Shown in pieces: positions 9,776 through 32,502 of a stretch of DNA of 45,219 bases. A program made the translations under genes and the position numbers. Origin of the DNA: Deltaproteobacteria bacterium (GTDB lineage: Bacteria; Desulfobacterota; Binatia; UTPRO1). Numbering within the stretch: the first letter of the stretch is position 1; each line of letters opens with the position of its first letter. Location of the stretch: NCBI GenBank assembly GCA_029262315.1, contig JAJCZP010000277.1, positions 1-45,219 of the forward strand. The letters run 5' to 3'. The notes under the pieces were generated by a model that saw only the letters and a program-made list of their open reading frames with translations, made no database searches and was not told the DNA's origin.

Positions 9776-10287
9776 CGCTGAGTCTTCTGGCGCAAGCGTC
9801 CCAGCACGGGCTCTGGGACGAGGCCCTCGATGTCGCCGCCAAGTGTCGCAACCTCTTTGACGAGCCGCGAGCTGGTATAGAAATGCGCCTCGCCGGCCAT
9901 CATGAATATGGTCTCGATTGTCGACGCCAAGTGTCGATTCATCATTGTCATCTGGAACTCGTATTCGAAATCGGCAACAGCGCGGAGGCCACGGATGATC
10001 ACAGACGCGCCCACGCGTTGCACATAGTTGATGAGTAATCCGGAGAAGCTTTCCGCCCTGACGCGACCGCCGCAGTGACGAAAGGTCTCGTCGATCATCG
10101 CGACCCGCTCCTCGGCCGGAAACATGGCGGTATCCTTGTGTGGATTGAACGCAACGGCCACGATCACCGTATCGAACACCTGCAGGCTGCGCTCGATGAT
10201 GTCGACGTGACCGTTGGTTATGGGATCGAACGATCCCGCATAGACGGCGAGGGCCGCCCGCCCCGTTCCTTCACTCTGGGTTGCCAT
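9772..10287 (-). CDS. coaD: Phosphopantetheine adenylyltransferase
   Basis: 171-residue nucleotidyltransferase that makes dephospho-CoA from 4'-phosphopantetheine and ATP, the penultimate step of CoA synthesis. The signature AVYAGSFDPITNGH holds the (T/H)xGH active-site motif, and the second motif is YTSSRLVKEVATLGGD. Length matches the family. The start ATG is at 10285-10287, 17 bases inside the end of rsmD; the ORF stays open upstream, but that part is a shadow of rsmD. Adjacent rsmD-coaD is a conserved bacterial pairing. Confidence 0.97.
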   Translation of the reverse strand: MATQSEGTGRAALAVYAGSFDPITNGHVDIIERSLQVFDTVIVAVAFNPHKDTAMFPAEERVAMIDETFRHCGGRVRAESFSGLLINYVQRVGASVIIRGLRAVADFEYEFQMTMMNRHLASTIETIFMMAGEAHFYTSSRLVKEVATLGGDIEGLVPEPVLGRLRQKTQR

Positions 10288-25992: not shown

Positions 25993-26590
25993 TCGTCGAA
26001 GCGAGACGCGATCTCGTCTGGCGCGGTCGTGTCCCTAGCCATGCGGCTGGGAGGCTACGGTGCCCCCCGGGTCTCGTCAACGGGATTGCGGTGCCGCCAA
26101 GAGCGCCAGCGCGAGCGCCCATGGCCCGTACGCCGACACCGGAACGACGAGTACGACCGTTCCGATCGCGCTCAGGAGTCGCACCGTGCATCGCCCCACC
26201 CCCCGCACGCTCCGGCTTCTGCCGTGCGGTCGCGCACCTGTCAACGCAGCGACGAATTCTCGACGAGCGGCGCATTCGTGTTTGCGGTCCGATAGCGCGC
26301 GGCAGGTGCCATCTGCCCCGCGCACGACAGAACCACCTCGCGATAGGCGCGAGTATCGCAAGAAGGTGGGCGGCCAGCGTACACAGGTCGCGCCGTGCGA
26401 CTCCGCGCGGCCGTTCGGCAAGTATCCGACAGCGCGAAGCTACCGGCCCCGCGCGAGCGGGTGCCCCGCTCCGAAGCACGACAGCGACCCACAGCATCGC
26501 CTGTCATCCGTCGCGCTGGCACCACTCGTGCAGCGCCTGCACCACCCATGCGCCCCCCTGGCGCCTGGAGGGTCGAAAAGGAGGCTTGCG
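25993..26590. other. Intergenic region without supported gene
   Basis: 598 bp between the MFS start and the Cys-rich gene. All six frames show only Arg/Pro/Ala-rich shadows of GC-rich DNA. One minus-strand segment (26077-26190) would encode a hydrophobic tail VRLLSAIGTVVLVVPVSAYG and onward to a stop, and another minus frame near 26380 encodes a hydrophobic LAAHLLAILAPIARWF. They are in different frames, so they could be remnants of a broken membrane-protein gene, but I cannot support a pseudogene call. Confidence 0.4.
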
Positions 26591-27091
26591 ATGCGGTCCC
26601 ATCAGATAGTGACAATACTCTCCCTTGCGGCGGCGCTCACCGTCGTGATTGCGTTCGACGACGCCAACGCCGGCCAGCAGATGTGCATCCGCGAAGCTCG
26701 CGAGCTGCAGGCGGAATGCCGCGCGGCATGCCGAGACGACTTTCTCATGGAGAAGGATCTTTGTCGCGACATCGACCCCGCGTGTGGCAGCGCCTGTCGT
26801 ACAGCGTACGCCAGCTGCACGACGCCCTTTGTCGACATCCTAACGAACTGCAAAGACACATGCCGCACGACGTATCTCGCCGAGCGCGACGGATGTCCGG
26901 TCGCGGGCGATCCCGCGCGAGACGCCTGTATCGACGAGGCACAGCTGCGCGCCTTCAGTTGCCGCGACACGTGCCGCGAGAACCGTGACGTCCGCGACGG
27001 CCGGCGCGCCTGCCGGCGCGCGCGAAGCCTGTGCATACGCGCGTGTCCGCCTCCGGGTCCGAGCACACCGCCCGACCCTGGGCTCGGCTAA
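26591..27091 (+). CDS. Small secreted Cys-rich protein with Cx10Cx3C modules
   Basis: 166 residues with a Sec signal peptide (1-27, cleavage after DDANA). The mature part has five cysteine modules: three of Cx10Cx3C (starting CIREAREL, CTTPFVDI, CIDEAQLR) and two of Cx6Cx3C (starting CRDIDPAC, CRRARSLC), nearly all with Arg after the last Cys. The tail is Pro-rich (PPPGPSTPPDPG). The spacing suits disulfide-pinned helical hairpins, or metal or haem binding, but there is no CxxCH. Function unknown. AAAAGGAGG precedes ATG 26591. The second large Cys-rich gene lies 3 kb away. Confidence 0.8.
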   Translation: MRSHQIVTILSLAAALTVVIAFDDANAGQQMCIREARELQAECRAACRDDFLMEKDLCRDIDPACGSACRTAYASCTTPFVDILTNCKDTCRTTYLAERDGCPVAGDPARDACIDEAQLRAFSCRDTCRENRDVRDGRRACRRARSLCIRACPPPGPSTPPDPGLG

Positions 27092-29783: not shown

Positions 29784-32201
29784 CTACGGATCGTACGTAA
29801 CGTCGACCGGCAGGGACAGACGACCGAGACTCGGCAGTCCACCGACCGCGTTCGGTGCGCTCTCCGCGGTAGGCGGAATGCAGAAGAGAGCACCCAGCGC
29901 CGGCCGTGCACTCTGTGTACACGCGACGTCAGCGGCACCCTGCACCGAAACCGACCCGCCGATGATACCGTTGTCGGTGAAACACTCGCGCGCACCGAAG
30001 GTACAGGTTTGCCCACCGGGGGTACACGACGGACAGGTCCCCTCTTCCTCCGGTGGCCTGCAATCCGGCGTCGAGATACATCCACGAAAGACGTCGGTCG
30101 AGCAGAACAGATCGAACGGCCCTAGCCCGCACACGCCTTCGTTGACCGTATCGGTATCGCCCGGGTTCGCCACACAGGTCGCATCCGTACAGGCGTTCGG
30201 AGCGGTCGGCTGCCCAGGCACGCCGCATTGGCCGCCGCCCAGACAATCGGAGGGCGCTCCACAGGGATCGCCACCATTCGTGCCGCCGAGACAGCGTGAG
30301 CCTCCGCAGACGCCTCCGCCGCAGTCGGCATCGGTGCTGCACGGGGTGTTGGTGTCATCGTCACACGTGTTGCAGAAACACTGCCTAGTCGAGAACCCGA
30401 TCGCGGTACAGGCCGGGTTCGCCGCGCTGATCGTCTTCGTCGTGAGTCCGGTCGCGCTACTCAGGGTGATCGGCAGCCGACCGATCACGCCACCAGAGTT
30501 CGGTGGGCAGTCGAGGCTGAGATCGCCAAAGAGCGAGCTCGTGCCGTTCACGACGCAGGCCTGGCCAAAACGCGTTCCACCGGTGCAGGCCCCTCCCACA
30601 CAACGGGGGCATGGCAGGGCGAGTTCGATACCCGAATGTGCGCGTGCGGTGAGATTGACCGTGGTTTCCATCTCGCCCGATTCGATGTTCATCGTACCGG
30701 TGATGACGCCCTCGATCTGATTGGTGATGCAGATTGGCACACCACCCGACGACTGAGGCAGCGGAGGACCGAAGAAGAAAGTACATGGTCCGAGCAGACC
30801 TTCGTTCGTGCAATCGAGATCGCTGGTGCACTCGAAGTACGAACCATCGCCCGCGCACCGTTGGTTATTGAACGCCGTCCCGCCAGCATTCGGCTCGGGC
30901 CCGTCGAGCGTGCAGTCACCACAAGTCGGCCGCTCGGTCCCCGCACAGCCGGACACCGCCAGCGTCAGCCGGCCGCCTGTCGGCAGATCGAAGTCGTGCG
31001 AGAGCCCGGTCCATCCGCTGTCGAGGTTGGTCGCGGCACCGTCGGGATCGACCTGCACTGTGGTCGGACACGGGGCGCCCGTCAGGTCGGCCACGCAGAC
31101 GTTGCATTCGCTGGCGCTCCCGGGAAATGCGAGGCCGAGAGCAGGATCCCCGTCGCCGACACCGGCCGCCCCCATGCAATCGACTTTGAATTCACTCACG
31201 CAGCTCACGCAGTCGATGTACTCCTGCAGCGTGGTAATGCTGGGTGCCGGACTGCCGATCGCGCCGCAATCCCATCCACCCGGATGCACCGCGTTCGGCG
31301 GTACCGCGACAGCCGGACACTCGAACGGAAGCGTAACGATGTCGTCCAGCGTCACGGCCACACCGCCGCTGACGACCTCGTTCATGCCGTCGCAGAGACC
31401 GTCACCATCGCCATCGCCACCACCGCCGCACCGCCGACAAATCTTGTCCACCAGCTTCAGCTGCAGACGCTTGATCTTCTCGACGGTCTTGTTGTCGCCA
31501 GAACTCCCGAGCTTCGGATCGGTATCGGGACAGGGATCGGCATCGTCGAAGCCCGCCTTCCCCTTCAACTTGCTATCCCAGCACTTCTCGAGCAGCCGCT
31601 GCTTCTTCTGGACGAACTTGATGCTCTCCTGCGACACGGTCCGCTGACAGCGCCGCTCGACACGGGTCACATCGCCACTCGACAGGAAGAAATTCGTCGG
31701 ATTGAAACCGTCGTAGAGCAGGTCACAGATCTCCTGATCGACGCCAGCGTCGGCGATACACTCGAGGCAGTCCGCGATGTCACCACAATTCCTGATCGTG
31801 TTGACGCAACTACCGTGGCTACCGCCCTCGAAGTCCATGCAGCGCGGAATGTCCCAGTTGATCGACGCGAGCGTCTCATCCGCATCGGAACCGGCATCGC
31901 CCTCGTTGCAGATCTTGTTCTTACCGCCGCACTTGCTGGCGATCTTGCCCTTCATCTTCGACGCCGCGTTCGCGATCTTGTCGGCCGCCTTCGCGTCCGG
32001 ACATGCGCCGAGGGTTGCCGGATCACCCTTGGTCAGCACGTTACGCTTGCACTTCTCGAGTTCCTTGGAGCGCGTCTTGAGATACTTGTTGAACTCCTTG
32101 TTGATCGCGCTCGTACACCGCGCCGGGTCGGCGTGAACCAAACCGGGTATGACGAGCGCGGTGACGACGGCAGCGATGGCGCCAAGCGTCGAGAACTTCA
32201 T
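29784..32201 (-). CDS. Large secreted Cys-rich protein with duplicated N-terminal module
   Basis: 805 residues with a signal peptide (MKFSTLGAIAAVVTALVIPG, cleaved after VHA). By my count the mature protein holds 61 cysteines. Two homologous modules occupy about residues 29-150 and 165-340: each has Cys-x21-LEKC-type spacing, then CPD, a lysine-rich helix, and CGG, followed by an ADCLEC- or DCVSC-like cluster. Further on come short Cys-knot-like repeats (CSTDADCGGGVCGG, CGAPSDCLGGGQCG) like those in myxobacterial and deltaproteobacterial surface proteins. Probably disulfide-stabilised and extracellular; function unknown. GAGGAGGAAG precedes ATG 32199-32201; the frame is open to 32630, but that stretch lacks coding features. 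Confidence 0.85.
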   Translation of the reverse strand: MKFSTLGAIAAVVTALVIPGLVHADPARCTSAINKEFNKYLKTRSKELEKCKRNVLTKGDPATLGACPDAKAADKIANAASKMKGKIASKCGGKNKICNEGDAGSDADETLASINWDIPRCMDFEGGSHGSCVNTIRNCGDIADCLECIADAGVDQEICDLLYDGFNPTNFFLSSGDVTRVERRCQRTVSQESIKFVQKKQRLLEKCWDSKLKGKAGFDDADPCPDTDPKLGSSGDNKTVEKIKRLQLKLVDKICRRCGGGGDGDGDGLCDGMNEVVSGGVAVTLDDIVTLPFECPAVAVPPNAVHPGGWDCGAIGSPAPSITTLQEYIDCVSCVSEFKVDCMGAAGVGDGDPALGLAFPGSASECNVCVADLTGAPCPTTVQVDPDGAATNLDSGWTGLSHDFDLPTGGRLTLAVSGCAGTERPTCGDCTLDGPEPNAGGTAFNNQRCAGDGSYFECTSDLDCTNEGLLGPCTFFFGPPLPQSSGGVPICITNQIEGVITGTMNIESGEMETTVNLTARAHSGIELALPCPRCVGGACTGGTRFGQACVVNGTSSLFGDLSLDCPPNSGGVIGRLPITLSSATGLTTKTISAANPACTAIGFSTRQCFCNTCDDDTNTPCSTDADCGGGVCGGSRCLGGTNGGDPCGAPSDCLGGGQCGVPGQPTAPNACTDATCVANPGDTDTVNEGVCGLGPFDLFCSTDVFRGCISTPDCRPPEEEGTCPSCTPGGQTCTFGARECFTDNGIIGGSVSVQGAADVACTQSARPALGALFCIPPTAESAPNAVGGLPSLGRLSLPVDVTYDP

Positions 32202-32502
32202 GGCTTCCTCCTCGTTCGAATCGTCCGCAGCGACGGCATTCCAAGCTCCCCGGTGAACGGCACGTTGCACCCGGAAAAACCCTTGCTTGCGACACTCTGT
32301 GGATCCGAATCGGCACTGCGGGGAAGATCCCCGTTTCACAGAGGGTAAGCCCCCACCCAAAAGCATGTCAAGGAGAAAGTACAGTATTCTGCAAGGAAAC
32401 GGCCCAGAAACCCCGCGATCTCGCATGGCGAACGGGAAACCCTGCCGCGACGAGGACGCTGAATCGAGCCCTCGTTCGCCCCGAACAGACCGATCCGGGC
32501 CC
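32202..32502. other. 301-bp intergenic region with likely promoter of the Cys-rich gene
   Basis: It separates two leftward genes and contains no credible ORF. On the minus strand there is a full-consensus -35 TTGACA (32366-32371) and a weak -10 TACCCT (32342-32347) 18 bases further on, plus a 15-bp dyad CGGGGA-N3-TCCCCG at 32319-32333 just past the predicted transcription start. The dyad may be an operator or a 5'-UTR hairpin. Confidence 0.4.

Follow-up and report, generated by a model that had tools for sequence, protein, structure and literature searches.

A duplicated 22-cysteine domain fused to many unrelated exported-looking proteins in a member of the Binatia

An 805-residue, exported-looking protein encoded in the window (the whole stretch of DNA that was analysed, 45,219 nucleotides, contig JAJCZP010000277.1 of assembly GCA_029262315.1) begins with a duplicated domain that has 22 conserved cysteines. 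The domain is portable: it is fused to many unrelated exported-looking proteins, and it matched no family in the libraries that we searched. We tentatively propose, with a confidence that stops a little short of even, that residues 26-366 form a portable module without catalytic activity that serves docking or attachment to the surface; its logic resembles that of dockerins, but it is not one of them. Portable and sharply defined by its signature, the domain is more than a cysteine-rich surface protein, and the mechanism that we outline for it is a reasoned guess.

Table 1. Positions of the gene and its features in the window
Feature	Residues	Window position	Strand	Remark
Gene for 805-residue exported-looking protein	1-805	29784..32201	-	ATG at 32201-32199; stop ends at 29784
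Ribosome-binding-site-like GAGGAGG		32207..32213	-	5 bases 5' of the ATG; from sequence
Signal-peptide-like segment	1-24	32130..32201	-	predicted by inspection of the sequence
Duplicated N-terminal domain	26-366	31104..32126	-	22 conserved Cys
Module A	26-181	31659..32126	-	10 conserved Cys
Presumed hairpin of module A	29-91	31929..32117	-	Cys 29, 51, 67, 91
Module B	182-366	31104..31658	-	12 conserved Cys, down to Cys366
Presumed hairpin of module B	185-258	31428..31649	-	Cys 185, 207, 224, 258
DGDGDGLCD, calcium-loop-like insert of module B	263-271	31389..31415	-	putative calcium binding
Second domain (C-region), repeated Cys-rich family	about 369-799	29805..31097	-	
CSTDADCGGGVC stretch within C-region	621-632	30306..30341	-	from sequence

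The gene and its duplicated domain

The original prediction, a reading of this DNA, described a secreted protein of 805 residues with about 61 cysteines. The translated minus-strand gene has exactly 61, and its product looks exported, with a signal-peptide-like start predicted by inspection (Table 1). The cysteine spacing reported at that time is present in both modules: the Cys-x21-Cys segments occupy residues 29-51 and 185-207, both end in LEKC, and they are followed by CPD (residues 67 and 224) and CGG (residues 91 and 258). Further CGG triplets at residues 627 and 632 lie in or just after the CSTDADCGGGVC stretch, which had also been pointed out and falls inside the second domain. The genes scanned nearby on the same strand are ordinary ones with no obvious link to the 805-residue gene: a TetR regulator and a luciferase-like monooxygenase lie upstream of it, and downstream come a royal-jelly-protein-like propeller and an enoyl-CoA hydratase.

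Two other frames in the window drew attention. A 570-residue open frame runs antisense to the gene (30636-32348, plus strand); we did not count it as a gene, such frames being not unusual at 65% G+C. At 26531-27088 on the plus strand, the window encodes a second small exported-looking cysteine-rich protein (186 residues) without a Pfam match, with one paralogue in the same genome (G000:C205) at 38% identity and one TAG within the match.

As for the duplicated module that had been proposed, the duplication stands and the extent needed revision, the repeated unit being longer, at about residues 26-181 and 182-366. When modules A and B of the window protein were compared by BLASTP, they matched at E 4e-5. 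With the set size fixed at 10,000, a profile built from 28 A modules recovered all 28 B modules at E <= 4.5e-7, with scores of 29-97 bits, the weakest 29.1, compared with 13.7 bits for the best cysteine-fixed shuffle (559 scored of 560 made). The A/B duplication is not due to chance. Within one protein, A and B share 22-43% identity (median 31%, 77 proteins), and the whole domain measures about 280-340 residues across copies.

The two-module pair is the usual unit and is not obligate. In 134 ORFs from loci found by the whole protein or the two-module profile, counted with a merged module profile, exactly two modules are present in 129, three in 4 and four in 1; a count without the merged profile gave a single module in 1 of 136 ORFs with at least one module. 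As a control we took 20 places of the source genome found by a half profile only. There, 22 ORFs had a module at E <= 1e-3; 14 of these had a second (weak in 4, with one module at E 0.026-0.39) and 8 had a single module, 3 of the 8 being short or cut frames. An initial description of the pairing as 'obligate' was dropped when these single-module ORFs appeared. One module can occur without its twin, since one 551-codon frame (L257, G000:C213) joins a single module of 48.4 bits to the second domain. At the other extreme, one ORF (L065, G000:C31:312-2105) has two complete duplicated domains in tandem with a Pro/Thr linker between them.

We found no credible match for the duplicated domain in Pfam, NCBIfam, PHROGs or the PDB, in agreement with the original view that the module was unassigned; a match to a characterised family, which would have spoken against it, did not occur. 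The candidate matches were rejected. ATP-synt_E_2 matched the whole protein at 20.7 bits against a cut-off of 25, was found in 1 of 28 members, is coiled-coil-like and was taken as chance; among the 28 members NCBIfam gave two matches, each in a single member, at E 0.06-0.07; and Spindly, at E = 1, was the one match of the profile search against the PDB. S-layer homology and carbohydrate-binding module profiles were absent from the Pfam matches of the window protein and the 28 members. In the literature searched we found no description of the domain, and in the available part of PMC8262859 the words 'cysteine' and 'surface protein' occur 0 times.

Cysteine pattern and presumed helical hairpin

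We defined full copies as those scoring above 180 bits with a model start of at most 6 and an end of at least 270, one per ORF, leaving out the second domain of the two-domain ORF on C31. All 22 cysteine columns are kept in 62 of these 77 copies; among the other 15, 6 are without Cys 230 and 245 (aligned numbering of the window domain), 4 without one and 5 without three. Cys159 of the window protein is additional and unconserved. Across 271 modules, cysteines tend to be kept or lost together: columns 97 and 113 are both present in 186, both absent in 10 and discordant in 9, and columns 121 and 135 are both present in 79, both absent in 55 and discordant in 2. Columns 62 and 104 never co-occur (81 and 72 modules, respectively), as expected if each is the alternative partner of the cysteine at 72. 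The core columns 5, 27, 40 and 65 are occupied in 265/265, 266/266, 263/266 and 249/258 modules.

From these patterns we infer disulfides 5-65, 27-40, 72 with 62 or 104, 89-110 and 97-113, plus 121-135 in module B, which would give five in A and six in B, or 11 per domain. Because there is little variation at cysteines 89 and 110 and at the four core positions, we assign the pairing of these by elimination and by the presumed hairpin geometry. A subgroup of four copies (L125, L126, L127 and L222) is without one cysteine of module A. Two A modules (L028 and L029, from the loci of L125 and L127) carry a new cysteine beside the CGG position, which then reads CCG, and 6 A modules in total have it. 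The missing and the new cysteine together look like a swap of disulfide partners.

The paired behaviour of the cysteines bears on whether the domain might be a metal- or redox-active protein, which we consider very improbable. It is rich in cysteine, and in two of the fusion proteins the partner carries a pair of CXXCH haem motifs, but those motifs belong to the partner part, and the conserved cysteines are even in number and mostly lost in pairs, as in disulfides.

The joint loss and mutual replacement of cysteines, together with residue coupling along an antiparallel band, suggest that each module opens with a disulfide-stapled antiparallel helical hairpin. Both segments between core cysteines have their hydrophobicity maximum at 100 degrees per residue (seven angles tried, with no shuffled control). 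We measured covariance between the two segments in 263 modules, after removing 8 of 271 with at least 15% gaps and excluding the four near-invariant core cysteine columns as conservation artefacts. Mean coupling in the antiparallel band (column sum 66-75) exceeds that outside by 0.155, a difference reached by none of 60 permutations of the pairing (mean 0.009, SD 0.030, maximum 0.076). It is the band mean that supports the hairpin here, because the top 15 inter-helix couplings, 8 of them in the band, do not exceed the permutations, which gave up to 11. An AlphaFold2 model of the window domain made without an alignment (mean pLDDT 42.7, pTM 0.21) was too poor for a fold search. Module B also contains a calcium-loop-like insert, and a similar loop after CGG or CGA is present in 7 of the 77 copies.

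Distribution, partners and possible roles

In the source genome (5.92 Mb, 298 contigs), the domain profile gave 83 matches, 31 of them at 200 bits or more, and the whole window protein gave 79, counting itself. All 5 other members of the same family match the profile, as do 52 of 148 genomes of the class (36 of the 95 good ones; at most 16 candidates scored per genome, so that class copy numbers are lower bounds). In a sample of the phylum with at most 6 candidates scored per genome, 7 of 395 genomes match, all 7 of the same class. Many outer members are divergent and keep mainly the hairpin part of each module. We found no copy in a plasmid collection and confirmed none in viral contigs, where none of the 34 pattern matches of one scan contained the domain at E <= 10. 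A scan of genome contigs by single-protein patterns gave 1 locus. Other phyla were hardly sampled, and the restriction to the class applies to the phylum sample.

In the window protein the duplicated domain precedes a second cysteine-rich domain, the C-region, which has no match in Pfam or the PDB. It has 42 matches in the source genome and occurs in 33 of 148 genomes of the class (at most 12 candidates scored per genome, copy numbers again being lower bounds). It is at times found in tandem within one frame of up to 1673 codons, and it often finishes a few residues before the stop. The C-region is present in 22 of the 77 ORFs that carry the duplicated domain, so part of the spread of that domain is one architecture multiplying.

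The remaining copies are joined to a wide range of proteins. On the 55 of 77 ORFs without the C-region we found 19 Pfam families. When 30 module-bearing proteins were scanned singly, 15 had a Pfam partner at E <= 1e-4 (among them L157, whose sole match lies under Pfam's own cut-off) and the other 15 had none. Partners include a sulfatase, SMP-30/gluconolactonase, a PQQ propeller, a right-handed beta-helix, G8 with a CEMIP beta-helix, FG-GAP, SBBP, thrombospondin type 3 and lysyl oxidase. Pro/Thr-type linkers adjoin 37 of the 77 copies, compared with 31 of 2000 background placements in other ORFs; a partner cluster of 46 segments is probably held together by such linkers, and we did not use it to count partner types.

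A ligand-binding module, for a carbohydrate or another polymer, would send its partners to an external substrate instead of to their own cell. The sulfatase, right-handed beta-helix and G8/CEMIP partners act on polymers or resemble proteins that do, and the Pro/Thr linkers beside the copies are in keeping with such a module. By contrast, the PQQ and SMP-30 propellers and the FG-GAP partners share no substrate with one another, and five copies stand alone, leaving ligand binding a doubtful reading, albeit the first of the alternatives.

Position within the protein varies as much as the partner. In the 77 copies, taken from the source genome and its relatives (starts chosen heuristically, some ORFs cut by the locus end), the domain is N-terminal in 54, C-terminal in 9, internal in 9 and alone in 5. 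In N-terminal copies 27-69 residues separate the domain from the presumed start or the start of the frame, and C-terminal copies end 10-24 residues from the stop. On a quick tree with 36 of its 74 inner branches open, the position label changes 14 times, while the starred branches alone force fewer changes (5 for the N-terminal label). The window copy belongs to a starred set of three (SH-aLRT 95), all in the source genome; one of the set lies behind a sulfatase (53% identity) and one precedes an unrelated domain. The common N-terminal placement close to the start would suit a pro-domain or an export or folding helper, removed or active only during secretion, but C-terminal, internal and stand-alone copies do not fit this role, and we regard it as improbable.

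The original prediction also held the protein to be a rigid surface or appendage protein. We found no direct support for this: with the domain joined to so many unrelated proteins, an accessory role fits better than that of a dedicated appendage subunit. A related possibility is that the domain is a structural spacer or armour. As part of a rigid stalk or coat, it would stabilise exported proteins and keep them at a distance from the surface without a specific receptor. The abundance and strong conservation of cysteine (62 of 77 copies keep all 22), the large copy number and the junction with another cysteine-rich domain in the window protein are what such an element might look like. In a spacer one would expect the number of modules to differ between proteins, yet exactly two modules were counted in 129 of 134 ORFs (at loci found by the two-module profile or the whole protein), even if single-module ORFs exist; a place at the N or C end, as in 63 of 77 copies, is likewise ill-suited to it. 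We judge a spacer rather unlikely. In falling order of probability, the alternatives are ligand binding, spacer, pro-domain and redox activity.

We return to docking or attachment, the reading that we tentatively favor, mainly on the strength of portability: the domain is duplicated, probably very stable, without a recognisable enzyme family, and found at either end of many unrelated proteins. The protein would be exported by means of its signal peptide and oxidised outside the cytoplasm. Its two homologous halves, each a stapled hairpin followed by a short cysteine-rich segment, may form a pseudo-twofold binding unit, and the domain would then tether its partner to one shared receptor, either on the cell surface or in the extracellular matrix. 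The partner displayed by the window protein would be the second cysteine-rich domain (residues 369-805). A gap in sorting systems also speaks for docking: MYXO-CTERM scored over its cut-off in 0 of 10 genomes (14 control genomes also gave none, and there was no positive control), and the source genome has only 2 Dockerin_1 matches. Against docking, the 54 of 77 N-terminal copies fit a pro-domain or binding domain as well, and 5 copies have no partner. In a bolder version, which we think possible but unlikely, a novel surface-display system of the lineage would use the module, a docking unit built on disulfides, to mark its clients, of which a single genome would encode about 30 at full length; within this family the module would stand where dockerins (16 and 17 matches) stand in two related genomes.

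If the docking reading is right, one uncatalogued domain would account for some of the proteins exported by a lineage that is apparently uncultured. Annotators would gain a new family recognisable by a sharp 22-cysteine signature; for biochemists there would be a compact module, probably very stable, with which its binding partner could be fished directly.

Comparison with known systems

Dockerins are small, duplicated, non-catalytic modules carried by many unrelated exported proteins. The present domain resembles dockerin type I (PF00404) in being a duplicated add-on module and, in 7 of 77 copies, in its calcium-loop-like insert. It differs in its length of about 300 residues (the PF00404 profile has 57 positions), its 22 cysteines and its mostly N-terminal position. 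The Dockerin_1 profile matched neither the window protein nor any of the 28 members, and in place of a calcium loop in each repeat the window protein has its DGDGDGLCD in module B. The receptor counterpart is also missing, which weakens the analogy: cohesin (PF00963) has no match in the source genome and is found in 1 of 10 genomes. Most dockerins of these genomes are likewise without a visible cohesin. Two relatives (G008 and G034) have 16 and 17 Dockerin_1 matches, and their contrast with the source genome is suggestive at most.

The twin-CXnC hairpins of CHCH proteins and plant alpha-hairpinins also consist of two antiparallel helices and two disulfides, as we presume here. Twin-CXnC proteins have a cysteine spacing of 9 or 3, whereas that of the present modules is about 21 and 24, in an exported-looking bacterial domain with an extra cysteine-rich segment. 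No CHCH-type family was among the Pfam matches of the 28 members at E <= 0.1.

A further parallel is the MYXO-CTERM/myxosortase tag (TIGR03901), which is likewise borne by many exported proteins of one lineage. In the abstract of PMC11980579, MYXO-CTERM tags are called universal in Myxococcota and are placed on dozens of exported proteins within one lineage. TIGR03901 is a C-terminal tag of 34 positions, unlike the 22-cysteine domain found at either protein end here. The C-terminus of the window protein reads LPSLGRLSLPVDVTYDP, and the MYXO-CTERM combination of a C-terminal cysteine motif, a transmembrane helix and an Arg-rich tail is absent from it.

Dockerins are the closest of these systems in logic, with membership failing on profile, calcium loops and cohesin. 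Should the domain indeed dock its partners, the plug-in logic of dockerins would have arisen on a quite different scaffold.
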